Shown piece after piece: positions 35,595 to 63,453 of a stretch of DNA of 64,000 bases. The number at the start of each line of letters is the position of its first letter. Positions within the stretch are counted from its first letter, which is position 1. The notes beneath the pieces were generated by a model, which did not search any database, was not told the origin of the DNA, and saw only the letters and a program-made list of their open reading frames with translations. Location: positions 1 to 64,000 of the forward strand of contig JALFRA010000007.1 of NCBI GenBank assembly GCA_022785125.1. The letters run 5' to 3'. A program made the translations under genes and the position numbers. Source of the stretch: Clostridiales bacterium. GTDB lineage: Bacteria > Bacillota > Clostridia > Oscillospirales > Oscillospiraceae.

Positions 35595-35804
35595 ATGATT
35601 CCTGCATGGATCCTACTGCTGCTCAATCAGGTTTTCTTTACGCTTCGCCTGTCCGGCGGGGGAAACGGCTCCTTCCCCCGGCCGCTGAAAGCGGAAGAGG
35701 AGCGCCGGTATCTGGAACAGGCCGCTCAGGGCGATCTGGAGGCCCGCAACAAATTGATCGAGCACAATCTGCGCCTGGTGGCTCACATCGTTAAGAAGAA
35801 GTAG
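35595..35804 (+). CDS. sigK: Sigma-K, 5' part of the interrupted gene (pro-sequence and start of region 2)
   Basis: Codes for the first 68 residues of the mother-cell sporulation sigma factor. Residues 1-20 are a hydrophobic pro-sequence ([16 protein letters not shown]), followed by [19 protein letters not shown] and the strongly conserved [14 protein letters not shown]. The frame then hits TAG at 35802 inside the element, so as integrated it makes only a 69-residue stub. The rest of the gene starts at 62962. GGAGGTG lies 6 nt before the ATG. Joined at the 8-bp core, the two parts give a 231-aa protein, close to the Bacillus pro-sigma-K length. Confidence 0.93.
35791..35798 (+). repeat. Left attachment core of the sigK-intervening element
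   Basis: TTAAGAAG, repeated exactly at 62954-62961. Crossing over here gives HIVKKYY at the junction, the usual sigma-K sequence. A second register (AAGAAGTA, 35796-35803 with 62956-62963) would also be in frame but adds a third Lys. Confidence 0.8.
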
Positions 35805-36018
35805 TGAAAAGGACAAATGGAGCAGAGACGATTAATTAGCAAGGCCGTGGGAAAACAGGAGCGGTCTTTAGCGGACGTTGGGATGATTCCTGGGTGGTGG
35901 CATATGCGCAAGAGCTTCCGCTATTTGGAAAGTGTATAATCAAAAATGGAAGTAATACGTCAAAAAAGCATCTTGAAAAGGAATAGGGACAATGATATGT
36001 TACGCATAGAAAACTACC
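35805..36018. other. Gene-free left end of the element
   Basis: Together with the promoter that follows, about 350 bp between the sigK stub and the PocR gene hold no credible gene. The only frame (35946-36167, 73 codons) lacks a ribosome site and overlaps the downstream promoter. Base composition is more AT-rich than the surroundings. In the excised circle this end joins the recombinase gene and supplies its new last 13 codons (ending at TAA 35833-35835). Confidence 0.6.
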
Positions 36019-36046
36019 TTGTCATATGCATCTGTTTTGTTATAAT
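36019..36046 (+). promoter_or_regulatory. Promoter of the pdu regulatory genes
   Basis: TTGTCA (36019-36024), 16 bp, TATAAT (36041-36046), 113 nt before the PocR gene start. Confidence 0.55.
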
Positions 36047-36159
36047 TAAGGTTAAAAGCGTCAGTAAAGCACAAGGTATTTTTAGACGAACTGTCGTATT
36101 GTGGAGCTTGAGTCAATGCCAACTTACAAAACAGTATGCGGTGGGATGGGGAGTCGTGT

Positions 36160-37386
36160 ATGAGTGAAATAAAAAAGATCTCCGAACTGATTGATATGAA
36201 TTTGCTTCAGTCCATCCAGGATAATTGCTCCAGAGCGATGGGGATTGGAGCTGTAACGGTAGATTATAGAGGGAACCCGATCACCCGCTACAGTGGCTTT
36301 ACTGAACACTGCATGAAGGTACGGGAGGTACAGGGATTTTCCGAGTTGTGCGCTCAGTGTGACGCACACGGAGGGCTGCATTCGGCAATTACCGGCCAGC
36401 CGTATATTTACCGCTGCCATGCGAATCTGGTTGATTTTGCGGTTCCGCTGATCATCAATGGAACCTATATGGGTGCTGTGCTGGGAGGCCAGGTCAAAGT
36501 ATGTGAAGAAGAGGCTGAGCAGCTGGAATATATTCTTCCTCAACAAAGCAATTGGCGCAAGCATGAGCAGATCAGTCGGCTGTATGAAAAAATGGAGACG
36601 GTTTCCTACGATAAGGTAGAGGCGGCCGTTCATATTCTGCGGGATATTATTGTTGCAATGACGGAAAACGAGAGCGGAAAAAGAATGCTTACAACCTTGG
36701 AGGAGAAGGACAAGGAACTCTCGGAGGAACGGGCCGCTCGCTCAGAGCTGGAAATGGCGCTGCGTGAGAAAGAGAATGACGCTATGGGAAGAAGCAACGA
36801 ATTATGTTACTTCTTCTATGTGATGAACATCATCACGCGGCTGGCATATGAAGAAAAGGCGGTGAAGACGGAACAGATTGCGTACGATTTTGCTGATGTT
36901 GCACGTTATGCTGTGGGTACGCAGAAAAAGCTTTCCACGCTTGGAGAGGAACTGGATTATATTGGGGCCCTTCTGCGGATTCAGAAAGCATGGGTAGGTG
37001 ACAAGCTGGATTTTCGTATTTCTGTTCCTTCCGGGTATTTTGGAATTCCCTGTCCGTTTATGTTGATGCAGCCCATTGTTGAAACGGTTTTTGAAGGCTT
37101 TGGTGAAAAGAGCAATGCGTCCTTCCAGCTGGAATTCTATGGAGAAGAAGAAGGAAATTGTTTTCTGTTTCAGATACGCTGCTCCGGTGGGATCAAATCC
37201 CTTGATGAATGGGTACATATGCTGAGTACGCCCAGAAATGGAAGTAAATCGCTCTATGCTGTCAACAGCAGTCTGCAGCACGTGTTTGGTGCGGAATATG
37301 GGGTCAGTGTCGGGGCCCGGGACGACAGAAAAAGCGGAATTTTGATTCGGATTCGGCTGCCGCTGGAGAGGCCAGGACCGTTCTGA
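36160..37386 (+). CDS. PocR-domain sensor with degenerate histidine kinase module
   Basis: A 408-aa cytoplasmic protein. Residues about 8-175 form a PocR ligand-binding domain with its Cys-rich signature (FSELCAQCDAHGG, YRCHANLVDFAVPLI), known in regulators of pdu/cob genes and thought to bind small diols. A coiled coil (about 185-215) leads to a LytS-like kinase region, but the usual PHFLYN phosphoacceptor box reads YFFYVM, the N box reads PIVETVFEG, and the glycine loop is lost. So it is probably a pseudokinase that relays the signal by contact. It forms a pair with the response regulator 40 bp downstream. Confidence 0.8.
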   Translation: MSEIKKISELIDMNLLQSIQDNCSRAMGIGAVTVDYRGNPITRYSGFTEHCMKVREVQGFSELCAQCDAHGGLHSAITGQPYIYRCHANLVDFAVPLIINGTYMGAVLGGQVKVCEEEAEQLEYILPQQSNWRKHEQISRLYEKMETVSYDKVEAAVHILRDIIVAMTENESGKRMLTTLEEKDKELSEERAARSELEMALREKENDAMGRSNELCYFFYVMNIITRLAYEEKAVKTEQIAYDFADVARYAVGTQKKLSTLGEELDYIGALLRIQKAWVGDKLDFRISVPSGYFGIPCPFMLMQPIVETVFEGFGEKSNASFQLEFYGEEEGNCFLFQIRCSGGIKSLDEWVHMLSTPRNGSKSLYAVNSSLQHVFGAEYGVSVGARDDRKSGILIRIRLPLERPGPF

Positions 37387-37426
37387 GGTGTGCGCCTGTC
37401 AGCATATGCCGTAGGAGGAAGGCCGG

Positions 37427-38503
37427 ATGAAACAAATTTTGGTATTAAGTGATAATGATTTAGAGCGACAAATTACCGGGGAAGTTCTTATGAACGGGCT
37501 GGAAGGCGTGAGGATTCTCAAAGCGTCTGAAACGGAGCAGGCGGTCAGGATTCTTCAGACCGAAAAAACGGATCTTTTTATCGCCGATATTCCAAAGTTC
37601 AGCCTGGACAGGTGCAATATGATCTCCTCGGTGCAGAAGCTGATGCCAGAGACGCCTATTCTTGTGCTTTCCTCCGGGGAGCAAGAGCACGTTTCACGCA
37701 ATATTTGGAGATTGGGCATTAGAGATTACCTGCTTAAGCCATGCCGGCCGGCCTGGATTCTTGCCGCTGTCAAATCGCTGATCGGTAAGAGTACCCAGCG
37801 CCAAATGGAACTTCAGCCCGAGCCTATGCGCAGAGAGCGCTACACCAACACACTGGCGGAATATCTGCGCAGCTTCCAGTACAGAAAGTGCATCCAGACC
37901 ACAAGAGAATACCTTGACGTTCTCTATCGGGATGAAGATAATATGGAGACGATCCGTAATGAGGTCGTGGATTTTTCTTCGGGTATTGTTGAGCTTGGCG
38001 CCCCTTTTGGACAAGCTACCCAGTGGAAGCTGGCTAACTGCCTGGAACACTTTCGTATTCGTTTCGACCGGCAGGGACGGAAATACGAGACTTACCTTAC
38101 CATGGAGAAGATGCTGAATATCCTCTTTGAAACCCTGGAGAAGAGCAGCTTTTATGAGGTGGAGAGCGGACAAAAGATCCTGAATTATATCGACCGCAAT
38201 CTGCGCAAGGGACTCAGCCTGGATGAGGCTGCGGAGTATGCCAACATGAGTTCCTGCTATTTCAGCAAATTCTTCAAAAAGATGACCGGACAGAATTATA
38301 TTGCCTATGTCACAGACGGTAAGATCGAGTTGGCAAAGCAGATGCTGCTGGACACCGATCTGCCGGTCATCAATATTTCCTACGAGCTCTCCTACGGTGA
38401 GACTAACTATTTCAGCAAGGCTTTCAAGCGGAAAGTAGGAGTTACACCCACAGAATTCCGTGAGGAAAGTAAAAAGGCCGGAGATCAAAGCGGTGATCGC
38501 TGA
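37427..38503 (+). CDS. AraC-type response regulator of the pdu genes
   Basis: A 358-aa regulator. The N-terminal receiver keeps its key residues (Asp in LSDND, phosphoacceptor Asp in FIADIPKF about residue 50, Ser in VLSSG, Lys in LLKPC about 105). A middle linker leads to a C-terminal double helix-turn-helix of AraC type (about 255-350: SLDEAAEYANMSSCYFSKFFKKMTG and YGETNYFSKAFKRKVGVTP). It is the likely activator of pduQ and the main pdu operon. Its partner sensor looks kinase-dead, so how the receiver is phosphorylated is unclear. Confidence 0.85.
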   Translation: MKQILVLSDNDLERQITGEVLMNGLEGVRILKASETEQAVRILQTEKTDLFIADIPKFSLDRCNMISSVQKLMPETPILVLSSGEQEHVSRNIWRLGIRDYLLKPCRPAWILAAVKSLIGKSTQRQMELQPEPMRRERYTNTLAEYLRSFQYRKCIQTTREYLDVLYRDEDNMETIRNEVVDFSSGIVELGAPFGQATQWKLANCLEHFRIRFDRQGRKYETYLTMEKMLNILFETLEKSSFYEVESGQKILNYIDRNLRKGLSLDEAAEYANMSSCYFSKFFKKMTGQNYIAYVTDGKIELAKQMLLDTDLPVINISYELSYGETNYFSKAFKRKVGVTPTEFREESKKAGDQSGDR

Positions 38504-38545
38504 TCCGCCCGGAGCGGAGCGGCTGCTGCCTGGGAGTGTAAGAGT

Positions 38546-39688
38546 ATGAAAGAATTCAGTTTCAGCACAAGAATCTTTTTCGGCGAAGGCGCATTGGAGC
38601 GGCTGCGCAAGGTGGAAGATAAACATGTGATGATCGTCACGGATAAATTCATGGCCAGCATGGGCGTGGCGGATAAAGTGGCATCCTTCCTGACCCGTTG
38701 TCAGGTAAGTGTCTTTGACGCCGTTGTGCCCGATCCTCCCATCGAGGTTGTGGCCGCTGGTGTGCAGGCTCTTCAGGCCTGTGGGGCGGAGGCTATGGTC
38801 GCTGTGGGCGGCGGTTCTACGATTGACGCGGCCAAGGCCATTCGTGCGGTGGCCAAGGAGACGCTTCAGATTGATACCGATCGCTGGGAGTGCTTTGCCA
38901 TTCCGACCACCAGCGGGACCGGGTCTGAAGTGACGGAATACGCGGTGATTACCGATCGGGCCAAGGGTATCAAATATCCTCTGGACAGCAAGGCGCTGCG
39001 TCCGCCTGTTGCCATTCTGGACCCCCAGCTTACAGTGTCTGCACCTCCCAGCGTTACCGCGGACGCTGGTATGGATGTGCTTACCCACGCCATGGAGGCC
39101 TATGTATCCAAGGGAGCCAACGATTTTTCCGATGCACTGTGTGAAAAAGCTGTTTCACTGGTGTTCCGGTTTTTGCCTCTTGCCTATCAGGACGGCACCG
39201 ACCTGCTGGCCCGGGAGAAGATGCACAATGCCTCCTGCATGGCTGGACTGGCCTTCAATTCCGCGGGACTGGGACTGACCCACGGTATGGCCCACGCAGT
39301 GGGGGGAAAGCTCCACATCGCCCACGGCAGGATCAATGCCATGCTGCTGCCTCATATCATTGGCTTTAATGCTAACCTGGCTGGGGTCCGCAATGGCGAG
39401 TACACCCTGGCGGCAAAAAAGTACCAGCGCCTGGCCAAGACCCTGGATCTGCCTGCCCCCAGTGTGCGGCTGGGTGTCTCCAACCTGCTGCGGGAAGTGG
39501 AGCGCCTGAACCGGACCCTCAAGATCCCCGCCACTCTTAAGGAGTGGGGTGGCGACCCGGAACAGTTTAGGCAGCTGCGGGAGGAAATGATCTCCGCCGC
39601 GTTGGCCGACGTCACCACCGCCTCCAATCCCCGGCCTGCAACAGCGCAATGTGTGGGGGCCATTCTTCAGAAGCTGTCTGGCTATTGA
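38546..39688 (+). CDS. pduQ: Iron-containing 1-propanol dehydrogenase
   Basis: A 380-aa group III alcohol dehydrogenase, expected to reduce propanal to 1-propanol and regenerate NAD+ for PduP inside the shell. NAD-binding GGGSTIDAAKAI (about 92-103) and iron ligands in AGMDVLTHAMEAY (about 173-185) and GLTHGMAHAVGGKLHIAHG (about 247-265) are visible. It sits 42 bp after the AraC-type gene and is closed off by a long terminator, so it is transcribed apart from the main pdu operon, unlike the Salmonella order in which pduQ follows pduP. Confidence 0.88.
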   Translation: MKEFSFSTRIFFGEGALERLRKVEDKHVMIVTDKFMASMGVADKVASFLTRCQVSVFDAVVPDPPIEVVAAGVQALQACGAEAMVAVGGGSTIDAAKAIRAVAKETLQIDTDRWECFAIPTTSGTGSEVTEYAVITDRAKGIKYPLDSKALRPPVAILDPQLTVSAPPSVTADAGMDVLTHAMEAYVSKGANDFSDALCEKAVSLVFRFLPLAYQDGTDLLAREKMHNASCMAGLAFNSAGLGLTHGMAHAVGGKLHIAHGRINAMLLPHIIGFNANLAGVRNGEYTLAAKKYQRLAKTLDLPAPSVRLGVSNLLREVERLNRTLKIPATLKEWGGDPEQFRQLREEMISAALADVTTASNPRPATAQCVGAILQKLSGY

Positions 39689-39703
39689 TGTCATTTATAG
39701 GAT

Positions 39704-39760
39704 AGGACAAAAAAGTCCACCTCGCATTTTATGAAAGATGTGGGGTGGACTTTTTTGTCC
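39704..39760 (+). terminator. Long-stem terminator after pduQ
   Basis: Arms 39704-39730 and 39734-39760 pair over about 25 positions with a few mismatches; the outer 17 bp are perfect and contain A6/T6 runs. It separates the regulatory/pduQ transcript from the main operon. Confidence 0.9.
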
Positions 39761-39868
39761 TTGTAAGCCTGGCGAGTCAAAAAGTTGGGCTGTTCCTGTG
39801 GTGAGATAAGACAGGGGAGGGGGTGTTTTTGGTTTGGACGGACTGGAATAAACCGACAAAAAAGCACT

Positions 39869-39947
39869 CCGGTCTGCCAAGAAAATAATGCCGGCTGTCA
39901 GGTATAATTCGCTCAGATAGCGTGCGGTTTATATGCTATCAAACCGC
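39869..39947 (+). promoter_or_regulatory. Main pdu operon promoter region with direct repeats and overlapping dyads
   Basis: A good -10 (TATAAT, 39903-39908) lacks a recognisable -35, as expected of an activator-dependent promoter. Two CCGG-containing repeats (39869-39878 and 39891-39900) lie 22 bp apart, the second where the -35 should be, fitting AraC-type binding. Downstream two inverted repeats interleave: GATAGC/GCTATC (39916-39921/39935-39940) and GCGGTTT/AAACCGC (39924-39930/39941-39947). A ribosome site AAAGGAGG follows at 39959-39966. Confidence 0.5.
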
Positions 39948-39974
39948 CGCTGCCCGGAAAAAGGAGGTTGTAAT

Positions 39975-40253
39975 ATGCAGCAGGAAGCTCTGGGAATGGT
40001 TGAGACCAGGGGGCTGGTGGGCGCCATCGAGGCCGCCGATGCCATGGTCAAATCCGCCAATGTCAGCCTGGTGGGCTACGAGAAGATTGGTTCCGGACTG
40101 GTAACCGTTATGGTGCGGGGCGATGTGGGCGCGGTCAAGGCGTCTACCGACGCCGGCGCAGCCGCGGCCCAGAAGGTGGGAGAAGTGGTCTCCATCCACG
40201 TGATCCCCAGACCCCACACCGATGTGGAGAAGATTCTGCCCCATATGCTGTAA
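39975..40253 (+). CDS. pduA: Hexameric microcompartment shell protein (BMC-H)
   Basis: A 92-aa single BMC domain ([24 protein letters not shown] at the N-terminus, then [18 protein letters not shown]). It matches PduA/PduJ in length. Hexamers tile the shell facets and their central pores pass 1,2-propanediol. First gene of the main operon; AAAGGAGG is 8 nt upstream. Nearly identical in sequence pattern to the pduJ-like product at 46948. Confidence 0.95.
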
Positions 40254-40308
40254 CAGCGACGGGTATCCCCCAAGAATTCAAATTATAAAAAGTTCGGAGG
40301 GTTAACAC

Positions 40309-41118
40309 ATGAAAGATGAACTGGTCAGCAAGGTTATGGACGAAGTCATGAAGAAGATGGGCATTTCCGAGCCTGCCTGCGCTCCTGAGGCGAGCTGCTG
40401 TGCCGAACCCGCCCCCGCCTGCAATCTGACGGAATTTGTCGGCACCGCTCTGGGCCATACCATTGGCCTGGTCATTGCCAATCTGGACCATCAGGTCCAT
40501 GAGCAGCTGAAGATCGATCCCAAGTACCGCGCCATCGGCATCATCAGTGACCGTGTGGGCGCCGGCCCCCAGATCTTTGCCGCTGACGAGGCTGTGAAGG
40601 CAACCAACAGTGAGTGCCTGCTGGTTGAGTGCCCCCGTGATACCGAGGGCGGCGCCGGCCACGGCTCCCTGATCATCTTTGGCGCCGAGGACGTGTCCGA
40701 TGTCCGCCGGGCCGTTGAGGTCTGCCTGCGGGAGATCCCCCGCACCATGGGCGACGTGTACGGCAACAGCGCCGGCCATCTGGAGTTCCAGTACAGCGCC
40801 CGCGCTTCCTATGTGCTGAATAAGGTCTGGGGCGCTCCTCTGGGCAAGGCCTTCGGCATCACCGTGGGTGCTCCCGCCGGCATCGGCGTGGTTCTGGCGG
40901 ATGCCGCCTCCAAGGCCGCTACCGTGGACGCCGTCACCATTGCCACCCCCGGCAACGGCGGCACCAGCTTCTCCAACGAGGTTAACTTCTTCTTCTCCGG
41001 TGACTCCGGTGCGGTGAAGCAGGCTATCATCGCTGCCCGCGACGTGGGCCTGCAGCTGCTCAAGTCTCTGGCACCCGACGAGGAGCTCAAGAGCACCACC
41101 ACCCCCTACATCATCTAA
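40309..41118 (+). CDS. pduB: Trimeric tandem-BMC shell protein
   Basis: A 269-aa shell protein with two BMC domains (about 45-150 and 155-260). The N-terminal 37 residues carry an amphipathic helix (ELVSKVMDEVMKKM) like the signal that ties the shell to the cargo in Salmonella, followed by a Cys/Ala/Pro linker with five Cys. There is no Met or alternative start near residue 38, so the short PduB' form made from an internal start in Salmonella is not evident. pduC follows after 21 bp. Confidence 0.93.
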   Translation: MKDELVSKVMDEVMKKMGISEPACAPEASCCAEPAPACNLTEFVGTALGHTIGLVIANLDHQVHEQLKIDPKYRAIGIISDRVGAGPQIFAADEAVKATNSECLLVECPRDTEGGAGHGSLIIFGAEDVSDVRRAVEVCLREIPRTMGDVYGNSAGHLEFQYSARASYVLNKVWGAPLGKAFGITVGAPAGIGVVLADAASKAATVDAVTIATPGNGGTSFSNEVNFFFSGDSGAVKQAIIAARDVGLQLLKSLAPDEELKSTTTPYII

Positions 41119-41139
41119 TTACGGGAAGGAGTCAGTGAC

Positions 41140-42801
41140 ATGAAGTCTAAGCGTTTTGAAGTGCTGGACGCCCGCCCGGTCAACCAGGACGGCTATGTGC
41201 AGGAATGGCCTGAGGTGGGCCTGATCGCCATGAACAGCCCCTTCGATCCCAAGCCCAGCATCAAGATCGAAAACGGCGTTGTGACCGAACTGGACGGTAA
41301 GTCCCGCGCTGAGTTTGATATGCTGGACACCTTTATTGCCGACCATGCCATCCGGCTGGAGAATGCGGAGAAGGCCATGGCCATGGATTCTCTGGACATT
41401 GCCCGGATGATCGTGGACATCAACGTCTCCCGGAAGGAAGTGCTGGACATCACCCTGTCCCTCACTCCCGCCAAGCTGACCGAGGTGGTAGGCAAGCTGA
41501 CCATCGTGGAGATCATGATGGGCATGACCAAGATGCGGGCCCGTATGATGCCCGCCAACCAGTGCCACGTCACCAACGTGCGAGACAACCCCGTTCAGAT
41601 CGCCGCCGACGCTGCTGAGGCTGCTGTCCGTGGCTTTGCTGAGATGGAGACCACCGTGGCTGTAGCCCGTTACGCCCCCTTCAATGCCATGGCTCTGTTT
41701 GTGGGCGCGCAGGCCGGCCGTCCCGGCATCATGACCCAGTGTGCCCTGGAAGAGGCCACCGAGCTGATGCTGGGTATGCGGGGCTTTACCACTTACGCCG
41801 AGACCATTTCCGTCTACGGCACCGAGCCCGTCTTTATGGACGGCGACGATACCCCCTACTCCAAGGCTTTCCTGGCCAGCTGCTACGCTTCCCGCGGCCT
41901 GAAAATGCGCTTTACCTCCGGTACTGGTTCTGAGGTTCAGATGGGCTACGCCGAAGGCAAGTCCATGCTGTACCTGGAGGCCCGCTGCCTGGCCGTCACC
42001 AAGGGCGCCGGCGTACAGGGTACCCAGAACGGCTCTGTGTCCTGCGTAGGTGTGCCTGCCGGTGTGCCCGGCGGTATCCGTGCTATTGCTGCTGAGAACC
42101 TGATCGCCATGCTGCTGGACCTGGAGTCCACCACCTCCAACGATCAGACCTTCACCCACTCCGACCTGCGCCGGGTGGCCCGCACCGTGCCTCAGCTGTT
42201 CTCCGGCACCGACTACATCTGCTCCGGCTACTCCGCCACTCCCAACTACGACAATATGTTCGCCGGTTCCAACTGGGATGCCGAGGACTATGACGACTGG
42301 ACCATCATCCAGCGCGATATGAAGATCGATGGCGGTCTGCAGCCTGTCCGGGAAGAGGACGTGCTCAAGGCCCGCAACAAGGCCGCCCGCGCCCTGCAGG
42401 GTATGTTCCGCGAGCTGGGCCTGCCCGAGATCACCGACGCCGAGGTGGAGGCCGCTACCTACGCCAACGGCTCCAACGATATGCCTCAGCGCAACGTCAA
42501 CGAGGATCTGAAGGCCATTGAGGATATGATGGCCCGCAAGGTCACCGGCGTTGACTTTGTAAAGGCTCTGGACCGTGCCGGCTTTACCGACATCGCCCAC
42601 AACGTTTACAATATGCTCCGTCAGAAGGTGGCCGGCGACTACCTGCACACTGCCTCTATCTTTGACGAGAACTTCCACGTTCTCTCCGCGGTCAACGTGC
42701 CCAATGAGTATCATGGCCCCATGACCGGATATCAGATCAGCGAGGAGCGCTGGAACCAGTTGAAGAACATTCCCAGAGCCATCCGTCCTGAAGACATTTA
42801 A
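41140..42801 (+). CDS. pduC: B12-dependent propanediol dehydratase, large subunit
   Basis: The 553-aa catalytic subunit that turns 1,2-propanediol into propanal with adenosylcobalamin and K+. Residue numbering is the same as in the Klebsiella oxytoca enzyme and all active-site residues are present: Gln141, His143, Glu170, Glu221, Gln296, Ser301, Asp335, Gln336 and Ser362. Ser301/Gln336 fit a diol dehydratase. B12 is required, so a cobalamin source must lie elsewhere. Confidence 0.97.
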   Translation: MKSKRFEVLDARPVNQDGYVQEWPEVGLIAMNSPFDPKPSIKIENGVVTELDGKSRAEFDMLDTFIADHAIRLENAEKAMAMDSLDIARMIVDINVSRKEVLDITLSLTPAKLTEVVGKLTIVEIMMGMTKMRARMMPANQCHVTNVRDNPVQIAADAAEAAVRGFAEMETTVAVARYAPFNAMALFVGAQAGRPGIMTQCALEEATELMLGMRGFTTYAETISVYGTEPVFMDGDDTPYSKAFLASCYASRGLKMRFTSGTGSEVQMGYAEGKSMLYLEARCLAVTKGAGVQGTQNGSVSCVGVPAGVPGGIRAIAAENLIAMLLDLESTTSNDQTFTHSDLRRVARTVPQLFSGTDYICSGYSATPNYDNMFAGSNWDAEDYDDWTIIQRDMKIDGGLQPVREEDVLKARNKAARALQGMFRELGLPEITDAEVEAATYANGSNDMPQRNVNEDLKAIEDMMARKVTGVDFVKALDRAGFTDIAHNVYNMLRQKVAGDYLHTASIFDENFHVLSAVNVPNEYHGPMTGYQISEERWNQLKNIPRAIRPEDI

Positions 42802-42816
42802 GAGGGGTGAAGCAAC

Positions 42817-43479
42817 ATGACATTTGATGAAAACACTCTGCGCAGTGTGATTGAAGAAGTCCTGAAGGAAATGGGCGCCGGTCAGAGCGCTCCCGCTGCG
42901 GCTCCTGCCGCTTCCTCCATCCCCGCCGCAGGCAAGCTGACCGTGTCTGAGAACGGCGAGGCGCGCAAGGGCTCCGCCGCTGATGAGGTGGTCATCGGTC
43001 TGGCTCCCGCTTTTGGCACCCGGCAGACCAAGACCATCGTTGATTTGCCCCATGACAAGGTGCTGCGCGAGATCATCGCCGGCATTGAGGAGGAAGGACT
43101 GAAGTGGCGCGTCATCAAGGTGTATCGCACCTCCGACGTCTCCTTCATCGCCCATGACGCCGCCGAGTATTCCGGCTCCGGCATCGGCATTGGCATCCAG
43201 TCCAAGGGCACCACTGTGATCCACCAGAAGGACCTGCCCCCCCTGTCCAACCTGGAGCTGTTCTCTCAGGCGCCTCTGATCGATCTGGAGACCTACCGCA
43301 AGATCGGCAAGAACGCCGCCAAGTACGCCAAGGGTGAGGCTCCCACTCCCGTTCCCACCAAGAATGACCAGATGGCCCGTCCCACCTATCAGGCGCTGTC
43401 CGCTCTGCTCCACATCAAGGAGACTGAGCTGGTGGACAACAATAAAAAGCCGCAGGCCGTTTCGGTCTCGTTCCAGTAA
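42817..43479 (+). CDS. pduD: Propanediol dehydratase, medium subunit
   Basis: A 220-aa subunit. Residues 4-19 ([16 protein letters not shown]) are an amphipathic encapsulation helix, followed by an Ala/Pro/Ser linker (about 20-40) and the folded core ([22 protein letters not shown] onward) that holds the cobalamin lower face. Slightly shorter than Salmonella PduD (224 aa). GAGGGGTG precedes the ATG; pduE follows after 15 bp. Confidence 0.95.
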
Positions 43480-43494
43480 GGAGGCAGCAAGTTT

Positions 43495-45854: not shown

Positions 45855-45855
45855 T

Positions 45856-55359: not shown

Positions 55360-55368
55360 AGAAACCGC

Positions 55369-55405
55369 CTGTCCTGCCGGAGTCTGCTGCGCTCCGGCAG
55401 GACAG
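55369..55405 (+). promoter_or_regulatory. 14-bp hairpin between the CxxC gene and the peroxiredoxin gene
   Basis: Perfect stem 55369-55382/55392-55405 with a 9-nt loop and no T-tract. It may be a processing or partial-termination site, and it argues that this stretch is not coding. Confidence 0.6.
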
Positions 55406-55433
55406 AGCATACCTGGAACAGGAAGTGAGCTGT

Positions 55434-56231: not shown

Positions 56232-56250
56232 TAAAACGAGGTGACAAAGA

Positions 56251-56631
56251 ATGGATTTGTTGGATTTTGGACGGGTGCAGGAAGGCAAAATGCGCATCGT
56301 GCAGGAGATGGTACCGGGCAAGCAGGTGACCCTGGCCCATATCATTGCCAGTCCTGATGAGATCATTTATCAGAAGCTGGGCCTGAATCCCAATGTGGAC
56401 TATCAACAGGCTGCCATTGGTATTCTCAGCATGACCCCGTCGGAGATCTCTGTGATTGCGGGAGATATCGCCACCAAAAGTTCCAAAGTGGAAATGGGAT
56501 TTATTGACCGGTTCAGCGGTACGCTGATCTTTACCGGCCGCATTTCCAATGTACAGACGGCCATTTCCGCCATTGTGACCTACTTGAAGAATCATTTGGG
56601 CTTTACGATTTGTGAGATTACAAGAACGTGA
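56251..56631 (+). CDS. pduU: Circularly permuted BMC shell protein (PduU/EutS family)
   Basis: 126 aa. The N-terminal part (MRIVQEMVPGKQVTLAHIIA, LGIL-like AAIGILSMTPSEISVIAGDIATK) is typical of PduU/EutS, which form hexamers with a plugged pore. Slightly longer than Salmonella PduU. Its stop overlaps the GTG start of pduV. Confidence 0.93.
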   Translation: MDLLDFGRVQEGKMRIVQEMVPGKQVTLAHIIASPDEIIYQKLGLNPNVDYQQAAIGILSMTPSEISVIAGDIATKSSKVEMGFIDRFSGTLIFTGRISNVQTAISAIVTYLKNHLGFTICEITRT

Positions 56632-57134
56632 AAAAGATTATTTTGATGGGCCGCAGTGAGTGCGGTAAGACAACGCTGACCCAGGCGCTTAAGGGAGATG
56701 TGATCCACTATCACAAGACCCAGTACATCAACCACTATGACGTGGTCATTGACACGCCCGGAGAGTATGCGGAAAACGCCGCGTTGGCAAAAGCGCTTGC
56801 GCTTTATACCTATGAGGCGGATGTGGTGGGGCTGCTGCTCAGCGCCACTGAGCCGTATTCCCTTTATCCTCCCTGTGTAACGGCCTGCTGCAACCGGCCG
56901 GTGATCGGCATTGTGACCCAGATCGACCACGAGGGAGGGAATCCGGATCGGGCCCATAACTGGCTGGCACTGGCAGGATGCGATCCGATTTTCCGGGTGA
57001 GTTCCTATACAGGGGAGGGGATCTGGCAGATCCTCAACTATCTCCGGGAGCCCGGTGATGTGCTGCCCTGGGAAACGGCAGAAGAGGCGGAGCGGCCCCG
57101 TACGGTGCTGTCCAACAAATACGGAGCCCTTTGA
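56628..57134 (+). CDS. pduV: EutP/PduV family small GTPase-like protein
   Basis: A 168-aa P-loop protein with Walker A GRSECGKTTL (residues 8-17) and G3-like DTPGEY. The NKxD-like box is TQIDH. PduV sits on the outside of the shell in Salmonella and is linked to its movement. GTG start at 56628 in a GTGA overlap with pduU. Confidence 0.9.
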   Translation: MKKIILMGRSECGKTTLTQALKGDVIHYHKTQYINHYDVVIDTPGEYAENAALAKALALYTYEADVVGLLLSATEPYSLYPPCVTACCNRPVIGIVTQIDHEGGNPDRAHNWLALAGCDPIFRVSSYTGEGIWQILNYLREPGDVLPWETAEEAERPRTVLSNKYGAL

Positions 57135-57151
57135 GATGAGGTGGAGACCCC

Positions 57152-58075
57152 GTGGATACCAATACATTTCTCCTGGCAATGAGCCGGGGACGATGCAGCC
57201 CATCCGGGGACATGGCTGAGAGTAAGTACTGTGTCTTTACGGCCCCGCTGGAGCTGCAGGTGACCCGGGACAGGATGTATTTGGAAGGCGATGACCTAGT
57301 GTTGGAGTTGCTTTACGGTTTGTACGGCGAACCAGGCGCGCTCCGGCTGCGGCAGGTGGACACCAATGTGATTCTGGAGGAGTCCACTGCTGGTTCGTTT
57401 GCGGCTTTCCTGGCGGACAAGCAGGTCAAGTATATCGGTCAGCTGATTATGTATGCCCTGCAATTCAAAATACGGGATCTGTCGGCCTATGTGGCCGGGT
57501 GTGCAGACGCCATGAAGGAACTGGAGGACACCCTGGACAACCGTATGGATAACAGCGGCACCTATCAGCTGCTGGATTTTCGCCGCAGTTATACCCAGTG
57601 CGGCAATATGGTGATCGGGGTTAAGGAGATCCTGACACATATTGATAAAGGCTATTATCCCATGCAGATGCAGAACAGCTATGTGCTTCAGGGTCAGGTG
57701 ATGCTGGAGTTCCGTTTTCTGGAAGAGCGGTACGAACTGACCAAAAATACGGTGATCAAGGATTTTGACACCTATACATCCATCGTCAACAACAATATCA
57801 ACCGAAGCGCCAGGCTGCTCAGCCTGATTTCTCTGGCGGGCGTCACCCTGAATTTTATGTTTGGGAGTCTGCTGGCGGTCAACCCCGTTCTTGGTGTGAT
57901 AGGCGGGCTGGCCATTGGCGGTTTGTCGGTCGGGGCCGGTATGATGTATCGTACCAACAAGCGAATAGAGAAGCCTCTGGAGCCTGGAAAACGGCTGGGC
58001 GCAGGCTTTCACCGGAAAAAATTGACCGCAGAGGAACGGATAGAAACCATGGAAGTGCAGAAAAAAGAAGAGTGA
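57152..58075 (+). CDS. Membrane protein with a CorA-like outline, unknown
   Basis: 307 aa, starting with GTG after AGGTGGAG. A soluble N-terminal domain (to about 105), helical segments (about 110-210, with KELEDTLDNRM and GVKEILTHIDKG), and two hydrophobic helices near the C-terminus (about 225-270), then a basic tail. This is the outline of CorA-type transporters, but the GMN signature is missing (FMFGSL in that region). It is the last gene of the main operon. It could tether the compartment to the membrane or transport an ion such as Co2+; neither is shown. Confidence 0.7.
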   Translation: MDTNTFLLAMSRGRCSPSGDMAESKYCVFTAPLELQVTRDRMYLEGDDLVLELLYGLYGEPGALRLRQVDTNVILEESTAGSFAAFLADKQVKYIGQLIMYALQFKIRDLSAYVAGCADAMKELEDTLDNRMDNSGTYQLLDFRRSYTQCGNMVIGVKEILTHIDKGYYPMQMQNSYVLQGQVMLEFRFLEERYELTKNTVIKDFDTYTSIVNNNINRSARLLSLISLAGVTLNFMFGSLLAVNPVLGVIGGLAIGGLSVGAGMMYRTNKRIEKPLEPGKRLGAGFHRKKLTAEERIETMEVQKKEE

Positions 58076-58087
58076 ACAAGAAGAAGG

Positions 58088-58121
58088 GATACCGCCGCAG
58101 CGTTCTGCGGCGGTGTCTTTG
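58088..58121 (+). terminator. Terminator of the main pdu operon
   Basis: 13-bp stem (58088-58100/58105-58117, one G-T), loop CGTT, then TTTGTT. It ends an 18-kb operon from 39975. Confidence 0.8.
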
Positions 58122-58164
58122 TTGCATTGGTGTATCAAAAGATTTTGAATGGGGTGGGAGATAT

Positions 58165-59523
58165 ATGGACAGATTTTTTTCAATCTCAGCCAAGGGCAGT
58201 ACGGTCAAGCGGGAGATCATAGGCGGCATCACTACTTTTTTTGCCATGGCCTACATTATCTTCGTCAATCCCAATACTCTGTGTGCTGAGGTGGGCAGCG
58301 GCAGCGGGGCCTTTTTCCCCGCCATGCCGGAAGAACTGTGGGGGCCGGTACTGGTGGCCACCTGTGTGTCGGCTGCCATTGGCTGTTTTCTCACAGGGCT
58401 GATGGCCAATGTGCCCTTTGCTCAGGCGCCGGGAATGGGCCTGAACGCATTTTTTACCTATACGGTCTGTTTGAGCATGGGTTATACCTGGCAGGAAGGC
58501 CTGGCCATCGTACTGCTGAGCGGACTGCTTTTCCTGGCCATCACAGTTTCCCCTTTGAGAAAAAAGCTGATCTGCTCCATCCCGGACTTTCTTAAGCACG
58601 CCATCTCAGCCGGCATCGGCCTGTTTATTGCTTTTATTGGCCTGCTGAACGTAGGGCTGATCTCCATCAGCGGCGCGGTGCCCGCTTTGCAGCTGTCCAT
58701 GGTGGTGGACGGGCAGCGTGTGTGGAACGCGCAGGGTCTGCTCACTCTGGTGGGGCTGCTGCTCACCGCGATTCTGATGGCCTTCCGGGTCAAGGGCGCG
58801 GTGGTGATCGGCATTCTGGTGACCACCCTGCTGGGAATTCCCGCGGGAGTGACCAATATCCCTGAGACGGTGACCATGGAACATATCAGCCTGGCGCCCG
58901 TGTTTCTTCAGCTGGATCTTGGCGGCGTATTTTCCAAAGGTCTGCTGCCCCTGCTGACGGCAGTGATCAGCTTTGCGATCGTGGATTGTTTTGATACTTT
59001 GGGCGCACTGGTGGGTCTGTCGGCCAGTGCGGGACTGGAGGACCGGGACGGCAGAGGGGATCGGGCTTTGATTGCTGATGCCGCGGCGACCTGCTGCGGC
59101 GCCCTGATCGGAACCTCCACCGTTACTACGTTTGCGGAGTCTTCCACAGGCATTGCCGAAGGAGCCCGAACCGGTCTGAGCTCCATTGTGGTGGGCCTGC
59201 TGTTTCTGGTCTCAGTGTTTCTGGCTCCGGTGGCGGGGATCATCCCTGCTGCAGCCACTGCTCCTGCGCTCATTATTGTGGGTGTGCTCACCATGCGCAG
59301 CGTCGTGGCCATTCCCTGGGACGATATGGAGTGTGCTGTACCTGCCTTTTTGACCATCGGAGTGATGCCTTTTGCCTACTCCATCTCTGATGGTATTGCC
59401 TTTGGATTTATCAGTTTCTGTCTGATCAAGCTGGTTCGGGGCAAAGGCAGACAGGTACCGGTCCTTGCATATGTTATTTCCCTGCTCTTTATCCTAAAGT
59501 ACCTGCTGGGTAATATGGTTTGA
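58165..59523 (+). CDS. AzgA/PbuG-type purine permease
   Basis: A 452-aa, about 12-helix nucleobase transporter of the AzgA-like NCS2 subfamily (TVKREIIGGITTFFAMAYIIFVNP at the N-terminus; AQAPGMGLNAFFTYTV; FVDCFDTLG-like IVDCFDTLGALVG; GTSTVTTFAESSTGIAEGARTG). It imports adenine, guanine or hypoxanthine with protons. The start at 58165 has GGGTGGGAG; the longer frame would include the pdu terminator. A direct link to propanediol use is not obvious, except that adenosylcobalamin synthesis uses ATP. Confidence 0.9.
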   Translation: MDRFFSISAKGSTVKREIIGGITTFFAMAYIIFVNPNTLCAEVGSGSGAFFPAMPEELWGPVLVATCVSAAIGCFLTGLMANVPFAQAPGMGLNAFFTYTVCLSMGYTWQEGLAIVLLSGLLFLAITVSPLRKKLICSIPDFLKHAISAGIGLFIAFIGLLNVGLISISGAVPALQLSMVVDGQRVWNAQGLLTLVGLLLTAILMAFRVKGAVVIGILVTTLLGIPAGVTNIPETVTMEHISLAPVFLQLDLGGVFSKGLLPLLTAVISFAIVDCFDTLGALVGLSASAGLEDRDGRGDRALIADAAATCCGALIGTSTVTTFAESSTGIAEGARTGLSSIVVGLLFLVSVFLAPVAGIIPAAATAPALIIVGVLTMRSVVAIPWDDMECAVPAFLTIGVMPFAYSISDGIAFGFISFCLIKLVRGKGRQVPVLAYVISLLFILKYLLGNMV

Positions 59524-59709
59524 TCCTCAGCCCTCTGGGCCATCTGGTCTGTGAGAAGATCAGGGGTAAACAGCGTCGTTAAGTTCCATATTTTGTTCAT
59601 CTGGTGCCTTTTATTGATAAGACCTTGTTTTAAGAAATCGGTTGTGATAGCGTATAGCTGGATTTAGGAAGACACGCGTCAGGCGTGGTATCAGAAAGGG
59701 GATCATGGT

Positions 59710-60858
59710 ATGGCGACCCGCATTGTCCTGAATACGATTTCTTATCATGGAAAGGGTGCGATCGAAAATATCGTGCCTGAGCTCACTTCCCGTGGTTATC
59801 AAAAAGCTTTGGTGTGTACAGATCCGGATCTGGTCCGTTTTGGCGTGGTGGCCAAGGTGACCGATCTGTTGGATAAGGTTGCCTTTGCCTATGAGGTGTA
59901 TACCGACATCAAAGCAAACCCCACCATTGAGAATGTGCAGAGCGGGGTGGCTGCTTTCCGGGCCTCCGGCGCCGACTGCATCGTGGCCATTGGCGGAGGC
60001 TCCGCTATGGATACTGCCAAGGCGGTGGGCATCATTGTCAACAACCCGGAGTTTGCCGATGTGCGCTCCCTGGAGGGTGTGGCTCCCACCAGGAAGCACG
60101 CGGTCTTTACCATCGCTGTCCCCACTACCGCCGGCACTGCCGCTGAGGTGACCATCAACTATGTCATCACTGATGTGGAGAAGAAGCGTAAGTTTGTGTG
60201 TGTGGACGCCAATGACATCCCCGAGGTGGCTGTGGTGGACCCAGACATGATGTGTTCTATGCCCAAAGGTCTGACCGCTGCCACCGGTATGGACGCCCTG
60301 ACCCACGCCATCGAAGGTTACATTACCAAGGGTGCCTGCACCATCTCTGATATGTTCCATCTGGAGGCCATCCGGCTCATCTCCCAGAGTTTGCGCGGAG
60401 CCGTTGAGAACACCCCTGAGGGACGAGAAGGCATGGCGCTGGGCCAGTACATCGCTGGCATGGGCTTTTCCAACGTAGGTCTGGGCATTGTCCACTCCAT
60501 GGCCCATGGCCTGTCCGCCCTGTATGATACTCCTCACGGCGTAGCCTGTGCCATCCTGCTGCCTACTGGCCTGGAGTATAATGCAGATTACTCTGGTGAG
60601 CGTTACCGGGCTATCGGCAAAGCCATGGGTGTGAGCGGCATCGATGAGATGCCTCTGGAGGAGGCACGCAAAGCTGCCATTGCCGCTGTCAAGCAGCTCT
60701 CCACCGATGTGGGCATCCCCGCCAATCTGAAGGGCATCCTCAAGGAGGAGGATGTACATTTCCTGGCGGAGTCCGCCTTTGCGGATGCCTGTTGTCCCGG
60801 AAATCCCAGAGATACCAGCGTGGAGGAGATCGAGGCTCTTTACAGAAGCCTGATGTAA
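59710..60858 (+). CDS. fucO: Lactaldehyde reductase (1,2-propanediol oxidoreductase)
   Basis: A 382-aa iron-containing dehydrogenase that reduces L-lactaldehyde to 1,2-propanediol. It matches FucO closely along its length (GVVAKVTD, NNPEFADVRSLEGV, PTTAGTAAEVTINYVITD, KFVCVDANDIPEVA, ALTHAIEGYITKGA). Iron ligands lie in MDALTHAIEGY and HSMAHGLSALYDTPHG. It would feed the pdu pathway with the diol formed from fucose or rhamnose. It stands alone, with AAAGGGG 9 nt before the ATG. No fucose or rhamnose aldolase gene is in the window. Confidence 0.92.
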   Translation: MATRIVLNTISYHGKGAIENIVPELTSRGYQKALVCTDPDLVRFGVVAKVTDLLDKVAFAYEVYTDIKANPTIENVQSGVAAFRASGADCIVAIGGGSAMDTAKAVGIIVNNPEFADVRSLEGVAPTRKHAVFTIAVPTTAGTAAEVTINYVITDVEKKRKFVCVDANDIPEVAVVDPDMMCSMPKGLTAATGMDALTHAIEGYITKGACTISDMFHLEAIRLISQSLRGAVENTPEGREGMALGQYIAGMGFSNVGLGIVHSMAHGLSALYDTPHGVACAILLPTGLEYNADYSGERYRAIGKAMGVSGIDEMPLEEARKAAIAAVKQLSTDVGIPANLKGILKEEDVHFLAESAFADACCPGNPRDTSVEEIEALYRSLM

Positions 60859-61106: not shown

Positions 61107-61135
61107 TCATAGTATGGCCTTGTTTTGCATAACCT
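61107..61135 (+). promoter_or_regulatory. Candidate sigma-E promoter of the recombinase operon
   Basis: TCATAGT (61107-61113) agrees at 6 of 7 positions with the sigma-E -35 consensus KMATATT. After 14 bp, CATAACCT (61128-61135) agrees at 6 of 8 with CATACANT. The leader would be very short. Called because mother-cell control of excision is expected. Confidence 0.3.
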
Positions 61136-61155
61136 GCCGAGAAGGGGGTTTGACC

Positions 61156-61344
61156 ATGAATGAGATTGACCGTGAGATCGGGCTAGTCCTTTTGAAGCGA
61201 CTGTGGCAACGGGATTTCATATCAGAGGAACTGTATTATTCCGCCTGCCGTTCCCGTGTTCTTGACAGGAAGTATTTTTCTGGTCATTTTGAAGAGAAAA
61301 TTTTACAAGAACAGAGGGAGGACTGGCGGTATGATGCCCATTAG
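61156..61344 (+). CDS. Small SHOCT-like protein upstream of the recombinase
   Basis: 62 aa. Residues 4-36 (DREIGLVLLKRLWQRDFISEELYYSACRSRV) have the two-helix LxxLxxxGxIxxExY outline of SHOCT domains; the tail is charged. GAAGGGGGT lies 6 nt before the ATG. It overlaps the recombinase start by 14 bp, so the two are translated together. Small proteins of this type often precede serine recombinase genes in clostridia. It may be a directionality or accessory factor; this is unproven. Confidence 0.7.
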   Translation: MNEIDREIGLVLLKRLWQRDFISEELYYSACRSRVLDRKYFSGHFEEKILQEQREDWRYDAH

Positions 61345-62995
61345 AAGGCTGAGGGAACAGCTGCGGAGGGGAAAGTCCATCTATGACCTTTCGCTGAGGG
61401 TTACATATTATGCCCGCGTATCCACGGAGAAAGTGGAGCAGCAGGGAAGTTTGGAGAACCAGGTCCAGTACTACACGGAATTCATCCAGAAAAATCCCAA
61501 CTGGACCTTGGTACAGGGGTATGTGGATGAGGGAATCTCAGGGACCAGTACCTATAAGCGGGAGAGCTTTTTGCGCATGGTCGACGACGCTCACCGGGGC
61601 CTCTTTGACTTCATCATCACCAAAGAGATCTCTCGTTTTTCCAGAAGCACGCTGGACAGTATCCAGTACACACAGGAGCTGCTGGACGCCAATGTGGGCG
61701 TTCTCTTTCAAAACGATAACATCAATACCCTGGACACCGACAGCGAGTTTCGTTTGGTGGTGATGGCTGGAGTGGCTCAGGATGAAGTGCGAAAGCTGTC
61801 TGAGCGCCTGAAATTCGGGTTCCGGCAGTCCATCAAGAATGGCCATGTGCTGGGCAACAATCGCCTGTGGGGGTACGATAAGAAAAACTGTAAGTTGACC
61901 ATCATCCCGGAGCAGGCTGAGGCGGTACGGCTCATTTTTGAACTTTACGCCACCGGGAAGTATGGAATCCGAAAGATTTCCCAGGAGTTGACCAGGCGAG
62001 GACACACCAGCCTGCTGGGCAATGCGTTCAACCAGCTGACCATCAAGCACATTCTGACCAACCCAAAGTACAAAGGGTGGTACTGCGGCAACAAGACTCA
62101 GTCGCTGGACTACCGCACCAAAAGGAAGGCCTTTTTGGACGAAAGCGAATGGGTTATGTACCCAGATCCCAACATCCCGGCCATTGTCTCGGAAGAGTTG
62201 TGGGATCAGGCAAATGCCATCTTCAAGCAGCGAAGCCGCGAGGTTCGTACAAAATCTACCAGCTATCACAACCGTTATCCATACAGCGGGAAAATTATCT
62301 GCGGCAGACACGGCACCAGCTTCCATCGTCAGTCCTTTCAGACACAGAAAGGAGAGACGGAGTTCTGGCGCTGCAAGACCTACCGCCAGAAAGGAAAGGA
62401 GGGGTGCGACCTGCCGGGCATCCGTACCCATGAAGTAGATCTGGTCTTGGCCGACCTGTTTGAGAAGGTCGTTACAGAGAAAAAACAGATCATACGGTTG
62501 GTACTGGACAGCATTGGGGAAACCTCCTGCGACATAGATTACTTTGCTCAGATCGGGCGGATCGATGTACAGATCAGTCAGATCGAGGAGAAGAAAGATA
62601 AGCTGCTGGAGCTGAGCATGGCGGACGCCATTACCATCCAGGAGTTTAAGGAACGAAACGGACGCTTCAATCGTCAAATTTCTGCTCTGCAGGAACAGAG
62701 AATGTCTCTGTGTCAACAAGAACAAAGGAAAAAAAGTACGGAGGTCGACCCAAAACTCCTGGAAGAAGCCCTGTGGGAGGAATTGAACTTCACAAACGGG
62801 ATCCACTCCGAAGTAGTGGCAGCCATACTGGATCACATTGTGGTACTGGAGCAAAGCGACGATAAGCAACTTTATTTAGAGATCTATCTCCGGCTGGGGC
62901 AGCAGGCTTCAGCCCATTTTCAGCGGGGCGGATCAGTCTCTTGCAATAATCCTTTAAGAAGTACTATACCCCCAACGGGGACCAGGACGACCTGA
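61331..62995 (+). CDS. spoIVCA: Large serine recombinase of the sigK-intervening element
   Basis: 554 aa. The resolvase domain (about 20-160) carries the nucleophile Ser in YYARVSTEK and Arg residues in SRFSRST; the recombinase domain follows (GKYGIRKISQELTRRG), then a zinc-ribbon-like part (IICGRHG, WRCKTYRQKGKEGC) and a coiled coil (about 400-470). The start at 61331 has GAGGGAG 10 nt upstream. Its 3' end runs 34 bp past the attachment core into the second part of sigK, so excision changes its last residues. Expected to excise the element in the mother cell. Confidence 0.9.
   Translation: MMPIRRLREQLRRGKSIYDLSLRVTYYARVSTEKVEQQGSLENQVQYYTEFIQKNPNWTLVQGYVDEGISGTSTYKRESFLRMVDDAHRGLFDFIITKEISRFSRSTLDSIQYTQELLDANVGVLFQNDNINTLDTDSEFRLVVMAGVAQDEVRKLSERLKFGFRQSIKNGHVLGNNRLWGYDKKNCKLTIIPEQAEAVRLIFELYATGKYGIRKISQELTRRGHTSLLGNAFNQLTIKHILTNPKYKGWYCGNKTQSLDYRTKRKAFLDESEWVMYPDPNIPAIVSEELWDQANAIFKQRSREVRTKSTSYHNRYPYSGKIICGRHGTSFHRQSFQTQKGETEFWRCKTYRQKGKEGCDLPGIRTHEVDLVLADLFEKVVTEKKQIIRLVLDSIGETSCDIDYFAQIGRIDVQISQIEEKKDKLLELSMADAITIQEFKERNGRFNRQISALQEQRMSLCQQEQRKKSTEVDPKLLEEALWEELNFTNGIHSEVVAAILDHIVVLEQSDDKQLYLEIYLRLGQQASAHFQRGGSVSCNNPLRSTIPPTGTRTT
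62954..62961 (+). repeat. Right attachment core of the sigK-intervening element
   Basis: TTAAGAAG, identical to 35791-35798. The flanks differ apart from these 8 bp (and the shifted AAGAAGTA match). Confidence 0.8.
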
Positions 62996-63453
62996 TCTCC
63001 ATTGGTACCATTGGCCTGATTAAAGGGATTGGTACCTTTAAACCAGATAAAAAAGTACGGCTGGCCACCTATGCGTCCCGCTGCATTGAAAATGAGATCC
63101 TTATGCATTTTCGTGCCCAGCGTAAGACCCAGGGGGAGGTATCCCTGTCGGATGCCATTGATGGAGACGGGGACGGGAATTCGCTTTCACTGATGGATAC
63201 CATTAGCGTGGATGACGATATGCTGGAGGAGCTGGATGCTAGAGACGCGTGTATTCAGGTGCGGGAATGTGTCAAACGGTGCCTGGATGCCCGGGAGGCC
63301 GCTATTATTACCCTCCGTTATGGGCTCAATGACCGTAAGCCCTTGACTCAGCGGGAGGTAGCCGCCCAATGCGGCATTTCGCGGTCCTATGTATCCCGCA
63401 TTGAAAAAAAGGCGTTGAAAAAGCTGGAGACAGCAATGGGGACCCAGCGGTAG
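62962..63453 (+). CDS. sigK: Sigma-K, 3' part of the interrupted gene (regions 2 to 4)
   Basis: Codes for the last 163 residues of sigma-K: the end of region 2.1 (YYTPNGDQDDLISIGTIGL), 2.3-2.4 (LATYASRCIENEILMHFRA), region 3 and region 4 with the helix-turn-helix LTQREVAAQCGISRSYVSRI. It has no start codon of its own at the junction; the first in-frame Met lies well inside. All blocks are intact, so the gene is under selection and not a relic. Joined to 35595-35798 it gives the whole protein. Confidence 0.93.
   Translation, partial: YYTPNGDQDDLISIGTIGLIKGIGTFKPDKKVRLATYASRCIENEILMHFRAQRKTQGEVSLSDAIDGDGDGNSLSLMDTISVDDDMLEELDARDACIQVRECVKRCLDAREAAIITLRYGLNDRKPLTQREVAAQCGISRSYVSRIEKKALKKLETAMGTQR

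Follow-up and report, generated by a model that had tools for sequence, protein, structure and literature searches.

A pdu-type microcompartment island splits sigK in a Flavonifractor-group bacterium and is predicted to be excised in the mother cell

Results

An island lies between the two halves of sigK

We analyzed a 64,000-nucleotide stretch of a Clostridiales bacterium draft genome (contig JALFRA010000007.1, positions 1 to 64,000; hereafter the window), in which the gene sigK is split by an island. The break lies at codons 66-68, with the 5′ piece at 35595-35798 and the 3′ piece at 62954-63453, and the 5′ frame reads 69 residues before a stop shortly inside the island. Between the two halves are a pdu-type microcompartment locus of about 25 kb, a 62-amino-acid (aa) open reading frame (ORF) behind sigE-like boxes, and a serine recombinase gene whose final codons fall within sigK DNA (Table 1). 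Both sigK halves contain an 8-bp core, TTAAGAAG, starting at 35791 and 62954, and fusing the halves at this core in silico yields one in-frame SigK, 231 aa long, and releases a 27,163-bp circle. An initial annotation of this DNA had described sigK halves separated by a serine recombinase and a pdu locus, and had given this length for the excised circle; the shared core and the open 231-aa join bear out the former, and the core-to-core spacing reproduces the latter exactly. The island thus has the sequence features of a sigK-intervening (skin) element in that it is inserted within the sigK frame, encodes a recombinase adjoining an attachment (att) junction, restores the frame in silico by precise excision at a short shared core, and interrupts the only sigK found.

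The top NCBIfam models for the rejoined protein are those of SigK. It passes NF004471 (283 against a cut-off of 252 bits) and stays below the stricter TIGR02846 (276.5 against 298.65), as does the SigK of a relative with an uninterrupted gene (G003, 214 aa scanned). The initial annotation had raised the possibility of a second intact sigK, and none was found in the source genome (99.76% complete, a draft of 43 contigs). One full-length match on contig C10, which also passes NF004471, was rejected as a second SigK: SigE models score it far higher (384 against a cut-off of 339), and it shares 44% identity with SigK. Genes for both SpoIIID and SigE are present in the source genome.

The ratio of nonsynonymous to synonymous substitution (dN/dS) for the joined SigK is 0.017 against G003, 0.045 against G009, 0.044 against G010, 0.061 against G002 and 0.069 against G006. 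At these ratios the split gene is under purifying selection and still encodes a needed protein, something difficult to account for unless excision occurs. The recombinase has dN/dS of 0.042 against that of Flavonifractor sp. An100 and 0.092 against that of G007, and the 62-aa ORF has 0.22. Downstream of sigK, an ORF that by eye resembles an ECF-type sigma factor (63535-63999) runs past the window end.

The cargo is a pdu-type microcompartment locus

A B12-dependent dehydratase, an aldehyde dehydrogenase, PduL and shell proteins are encoded in one cluster, as in pdu-type loci (Table 1). The locus shares dehydratase, reactivase, PduP, PduL, PduO, shell and vertex proteins with Salmonella-type loci and with those of other Flavonifractor, and differs from them in sitting inside sigK and in its regulators, a PocR-sensor kinase with a response regulator. 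The initial annotation had called this propanediol system complete in enzymes, shell and regulators. Dehydratase, reactivase, shell and regulators are indeed present; "complete" is slightly too strong, because no island ORF was assigned as PduF, PduW or PduX, for which no dedicated search was made. The pdu-type assignment also stands, and the substrate may be either propanediol or glycerol, since PduC matches solved glycerol dehydratases (861 bits) and diol dehydratases (834 bits) about equally. No Rfam family, riboswitches included, reached threshold in 34000-64000.

In a PHROG search, 29 island proteins match 16 families, 11 of which are unnamed. The named ones are an integrase and a DNA invertase (both matched by the recombinase), a "tail protein", a transcriptional regulator and a thioredoxin domain. 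The "tail protein" match was rejected as a phage gene, having been traced to the NCS2 permease; the name of this family (phrog_27398) looks wrong, because the match spans the entire permease (58162-59520, 8.5e-123). Going by the named families, no phage structural or replication gene was recognised among the 29 proteins, in which respect the island is not prophage-like, and in this sense the earlier statement that it holds no phage genes is upheld.

Table 1. Features of the island and its junctions in the window
Feature	Position	Strand	Basis or remark
Predicted sigE-type promoter of sigK	35544..35573	+	GTATAGG-N14-GAATACAGT, GGACAAA within spacer
sigK 5′ part	35595..35803	+	Codons 1-68, then read-through into island until stop
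Shared core TTAAGAAG at attL	35791..35798	+	In-silico join; junctions of relatives
Left att arm	35798..35818	+	13/21 bases mirror right arm
pdu block	35942..60858	+	Syntenic with blocks elsewhere in related genomes
PocR-sensor histidine kinase	36136..37386	+	PF10114, PF06580
Response regulator with AraC-type HTH	37427..38503	+	PF00072, PF12833
Iron alcohol dehydrogenase 1 (PduQ-like)	38546..39688	+	
PduA-type shell protein	39975..40253	+	PduJ similarity and synteny, not NCBIfam
PduB shell protein	40309..41118	+	NF011944, TIGR04501
PduC, diol/glycerol dehydratase large subunit	41140..42801	+	NF011979
PduD, dehydratase medium subunit	42817..43479	+	NF011616
PduE, dehydratase small subunit	43495..44007	+	NF011972
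PduG, reactivase alpha	44034..45854	+	TIGR04491
PduH	45856..46218	+	Position and synteny alone; no NCBIfam match
Two BMC shell proteins	46223..47223	+	PduK-like 46223-46909, PduJ-like 46948-47223
PduL, phosphate propanoyltransferase	47245..47904	+	NF011652
EutJ-family protein	47916..48749	+	NF011660
PduM-position protein	48767..49585	+	TIGR02536 below cut-off
Vertex protein, CcmL/EutN-type	49599..49865	+	
PduO, cobalamin adenosyltransferase	49865..50851	+	TIGR00636
PduP, CoA-acylating aldehyde dehydrogenase	50865..52277	+	NF011927
PduS/RnfC-type electron-transfer protein	52287..53621	+	TIGR01945
Conserved membrane-like protein	53634..54557	+	No NCBIfam match; syntenic
PduT-type shell protein	54588..55139	+	TIGR02526 below cut-off
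Peroxiredoxin-glutaredoxin fusion	55326..56231	+	
PduU-type shell protein and PduV	56251..57134	+	PduU-type 56251-56631, PduV 56628-57134; PF00936, PF10662
CorA-like membrane protein	57152..58075	+	PF01544
NCS2-type permease	58162..59523	+	PF00860
Iron alcohol dehydrogenase 2	59710..60858	+	PF00465, PF25137
Predicted sigE-type promoter of 62-aa ORF	61107..61132	+	TCATAG-N14-GCATAA
62-aa ORF, candidate recombination directionality factor	61156..61344	+	Kept beside recombinase; dN/dS 0.22
Large serine recombinase, 554 aa	61331..62995	+	PF00239, PF07508, PF13408; phrog_95 integrase
Right att arm	62932..62952	+	Mirrors left arm at 13/21
sigK 3′ part	62954..63453	+	In-silico join
Shared core TTAAGAAG at attR	62954..62961	+	In-silico join

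The recombination module and its att sites

The 62-aa ORF recurs upstream of the closer relatives of the recombinase, and in most of 18 more divergent loci inspected by eye an ORF of similar pattern, roughly 60-68 aa long, occupies the equivalent position. The 62-aa ORF has no NCBIfam match, and its database matches at E<=0.001 number 16, counting itself; by analogy with known systems we infer that its product acts as a directionality factor. The boxes TCATAG-N14-GCATAR are kept upstream of the small ORF, with a variable spacer, in 10 of the 14 regions compared, two of which (L057 and L058) are identical in this stretch. These boxes fit a sigE promoter. The corresponding boxes before sigK itself are kept in all eight upstream regions printed, with the variant GTATAAG in two.

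The att arms form an inverted repeat, with 19 of 21 bases mirrored in Flavonifractor sp. An82 (G007), 14 in an uncultured Flavonifractor metagenome-assembled genome (MAG; G016) and 13 in the window. The symmetry appears in register only, sliding the arms by one or two bases leaving 2-9 of 21 mirrored. Judged by eye, the junctions of relatives share a common layout: the 5′ side reads CAYATYRTTAARAA and then approximately GGNTGAAGCRRAAGGANNAATT, the 3′ side approximately AATTCCTCCTTCTGCTTCANCCGTCC and then AARAARTAYTAYACC, so that inverted arms flank AARAA. The central AA is the likely crossover point, by comparison with the gin element, for which an AA crossover has been proposed at an inverted-repeat att site (PMC5595907). 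Recombinases 32-76% identical to that of the window are encoded on 16 viral contigs (L156-L171), and the recombinase may be of phage ancestry; an att pattern of the genus, which differs from the window's own arm, had no match in the viral contigs.

The sigK site is occupied or empty among related genomes

Across 20 genomes of the genus (G000 being the source genome), sigK is broken at codon 66-72 in seven (G000, G004, G007, G008, G015, G016 and G018) and uninterrupted at this site in ten (G001, G002, G003, G005, G006, G009, G010, G011, G013 and G014); the remaining three (G012, G017 and G019) gave no SigK match. The joined flanks of the window align across the empty site of G003 over 933 bp (88% identity, one gap opening) and of G001 over 633 bp (93.5%, two gap openings). 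The empty site for which the initial annotation had proposed a survey therefore occurs in half of the genus genomes, these two close relatives included.

A second break, near codon 112, is found in G001, G004 and Flavonifractor sp. An306 (G008). The core of this codon-112 element, AAATG, resembles the AATGA of Bacillus subtilis, and it is the sites of these three elements, not that of the window, that resemble the B. subtilis skin site. G001 (L049 from 1585) and G008 (L046) share the left part of this element at 99.2% identity over 7,671 bp, and its right end with sigK at 91% over 2,314 bp; the gpsA and sigE DNA of the two genomes is 82% identical. In G008 (L045-L047) and at L131 (3037-19869), sigK lies in three pieces with breaks near codons 67 and 112, and two excisions would be needed. 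G004 (L043 and L044) also has both breaks; its middle piece was not found, unlike that of G008.

The recombinase marks a family of sigK islands

Searching GTDB genomes with the recombinase, we confirmed 380 relatives and retained the best 80. The recombinase adjoins a sigK half in 73 of these 80, lying beside the 3′ half on the same strand in 42 and beside the 5′ half on the opposite strand in 31. Cargo was sampled as 20 proteins from nine elements, picked from ORF lists, and no phage structural domain was found among them. The An82 element carries radical SAM, PP2C and trypsin-FHA proteins and two protein kinases; that of An100, whose left end lies outside the sequence seen, carries type III restriction-modification. 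A prismane/hybrid-cluster protein occurs in two sigK elements (L089, 7280-8923; L108, 4100-5617), the former also encoding TspO and a Crp-type regulator. Redoxin-type proteins are found in L090 and L081, with Fer4_5, DUF255 and EAL proteins in addition in L090, and further cargo includes an AAA ATPase (L087), ABC transporter parts (L110) and a carboxylesterase (L122). Judged from these loci, islands of one family, marked by this recombinase, occupy sigK in many other gut bacteria, with att arms in common and non-phage cargo that changes from one to the next.

The occupants of the site can also be seen from truncated SigK proteins. We found 2174 N-terminal SigK fragments, a search in which only proteins of 0.55-1.75 times the query length can appear. 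Among the 120 listed, 78 diverge right past codon 66-68, 26 continue to about codon 110 and 16 are others. Two of them (P0018 and P0019) are residue-identical to the window's SigK up to the site (codon 68) and then run into the end of another element, an end that also follows, nearly unchanged, other SigKs (P0022 and P0036). At P0018 and P0019, the site of the window's island is thus taken by other islands, although the hosts are almost identical.

It is likely that the recombination module crossed genera, because the recombinase of the window is 94% identical to that of An100 whereas the SigK 3′ halves share only 71%. At the DNA level the module is 87% and sigK 68% identical between the two. 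The recombinase is also 85-86% identical to those of Pseudoflavonifractor capillosus, an Oscillospiraceae MAG and Candidatus Agathobaculum (L057, L059 and L061), with 63-67% identity in the SigK 5′ half. The recombinase tree joins the window and An100 as a pair, with modest support (94/69), and the SigK tree joins An100 to another lineage (99/95).

The pdu block probably has a different history from its host

pduC occurs in eight of the 20 genus genomes. In the seven other than the source genome, the block lies on a different contig than the sigK pieces found, although it is cut by a contig end in G007 and its last two genes are unmatched in G006. No pdu genes occur in the sigK element of G007, which is complete at 17.3 kb, and no pduC match was found in the nearest host relatives, G001 and G003 (the latter 85% complete). 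A search of 400 family genomes for the junction between pdu block and recombination module found it in the source genome alone. The same cargo in relatives' sigK, which the initial annotation had suggested looking for, was accordingly not recovered; the relatives' sigK elements exist and carry different cargo.

In G004 and G015 the pdu block lies 3′ of gpsA and tRNA-Pro(ggg). A single chromosomal home for the block was considered and rejected: in the source genome this spot (L193 at about 9850-10990, contig C13) holds, by eye, a tyrosine-integrase-like ORF. Vertical inheritance with the host was likewise rejected, the pdu tree conflicting with the two-gene host tree. The source genome groups with G001 (100/99) and G003 (88/89) in the gpsA and sigE tree, and with G004 and G008 (100/100) in a tree of 10 kb of pdu DNA, in which the base make-up of the window's pdu sequence departs from that of the alignment, so that this tree should be read with some care. 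Because the block lies away from sigK in seven other genomes and its tree disagrees with that of the host, it was likely acquired, and the element that took it in could already use the sigK site.

Discussion

Comparison with known elements

The initial annotation had taken known skin elements to be prophage-like, which does not hold for all of them. Island IV of Bacillus cereus biovar anthracis is a non-phage sigK element of 22,211 bp with restriction-modification genes, inserted at sigK nucleotide 195 and forming a circle in sporulation (PMC10745906). It matches the window's island in non-phage content, similar size, about the same codon and a serine recombinase beside a sigK half, and differs in that its recombinase lies beside the 5′ half in the opposite direction and its host belongs to Bacilli (PMC10745906). 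Similarly, gin in gerE of Bacillus cereus ATCC10987 is a non-viral element with a serine recombinase and a small factor (PMC5595907). Like the window's island it splits a sporulation gene and has a small ORF and an inverted-repeat att site; unlike it, gin targets gerE, and a metabolic locus is not among its content as reported in the excerpted text (PMC5595907).

The Clostridioides difficile skin element also splits sigK and pairs a serine recombinase with a small protein. There, excision requires both CD1231 and the acidic 72-aa CD1234, the latter controlled by sigE and SpoIIID, and CD1231 alone integrates the element (PMC5025042). Its cargo is prophage-like (PMC5025042) and its insertion position is another one (PMC10745906), and its 72-aa factor is likened to the 62-aa protein by description only. 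In the B. subtilis mother cell, a serine recombinase likewise restores sigK, and the skin element there differs in being 48 kb long and prophage-like, with an AATGA core (PMC10745906, PMC13141910). Prophages in sigK have been described in Clostridium tetani and Alicyclobacillus (PMC5553647, PMC13141910). In a literature search with thin coverage of subscription journals and bioRxiv, we found neither a sigK element described as carrying microcompartment genes nor a published sigK-island family spanning genera of Oscillospiraceae. Non-phage sigK islands are thus already known; new here are the organelle cargo, the recombinase family of sigK and a module that likely crossed genera.

A proposed mechanism and its alternatives

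We consider it very probable that the 27,163-bp pdu island, which splits the only sigK found, leaves the chromosome of the sporulating mother cell as a circle through the action of the serine recombinase it encodes, rebuilding sigK in frame. In this scheme, sigE would switch on the 62-aa ORF in the mother cell, its product would act as directionality factor, and recombinase and factor together would recombine attL with attR at the core. The timing and the cell type are taken from Bacillus and C. difficile. The forespore would keep the island, so that the pdu genes would be inherited though each mother cell discards them. The pdu block itself would have entered a pre-existing sigK element, between the left arm and the recombination module, since syntenic blocks sit elsewhere in related genomes.

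Several observations weigh against this scheme. Excision is a prediction from sequence. The sigE-like boxes are absent in four of the 14 regions (L062, L063, L131 and L132), and both box pairs were called sigE-type by resemblance to the sigE and SpoIIID consensus sequences. The arms of the window (13/21) are less symmetric than those of An82 (19/21), and dS in the SigK comparisons is 0.98-1.65, near saturation. Seven of the 80 recombinase relatives do not abut sigK: in three (L058, L098 and L124) the sequence ends soon past the recombinase, in two (L063 and L109) a sigK piece lies some kb off, and in two (L085 and L126) no sigK was found despite 10 kb of flank. The junction of pdu block and module, moreover, is a single case among the 400 family genomes.

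A rival reading is a generic integrative island that targets sigK and excises at random or under stress, the strain sporulating through rare excisants. In its favour, the module moves between genomes, developmental timing is the exception among mobile islands in general, and the 62-aa ORF is a candidate factor. We nevertheless regard such an island as improbable, given the sigE-like boxes kept before this ORF in most regions, the strong constraint on the split SigK and the behaviour of the sigK elements studied to date, which leave the gene during sporulation (PMC5025042, PMC10745906). Still less credit goes to a dead insertion, in which SigK production has been lost and the pdu locus simply occupies a defunct sporulation gene. 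The weakened arm symmetry in the window would agree with decay, but frame and core are intact, dN/dS is very low both for the split gene (0.017) and for the recombinase (0.042), the sigK promoter boxes are kept, and SpoIIID and SigE genes are present. Least plausible of all is an assembly artefact, with a false join at the pdu block or between the two sigK halves. The unique junction and the draft state of the genome could raise this suspicion, which the initial annotation had voiced; against it, each junction stretch occurs once in the genome, pduC is single-copy there, and both junctions lie within one 357-kb contig. In addition, the longest contig in the protein database is 464,840 bp both for the 62-aa ORF (27 contigs) and for the pdu kinase (21 contigs), and because of this they probably occur together in another assembly, on a contig longer than the window's own, which speaks for co-location and is no proof of adjacency. 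Misassembly is hence unlikely.

The predicted excision might also serve dispersal. In this more speculative extension, to which we give a rather low probability, sigK islands of gut spore-formers would spread useful genes: set free as circles in mother cells only, they would be released at lysis and reintegrated by the recombinase alone into the sigK of any other spore-former. The idea builds on the mobility data and on the sufficiency of CD1231 for integration, release and uptake being pure inference. If true, it would explain the near-identical islands in different species and the frequent exchange of cargo.

Implications

The host is a gut spore-former of the Flavonifractor group, and its island encodes an organelle for B12-dependent degradation of a diol or glycerol. 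Interrupted sporulation genes have mainly been interpreted as the result of phage domestication; in this case such an element carries the locus of a catabolic organelle, and the question shifts to why sigK serves as a landing site for cargo at all. In this organism, a large metabolic trait would be kept in growing cells and spores, and the mother cell is predicted to lose it as it dies.

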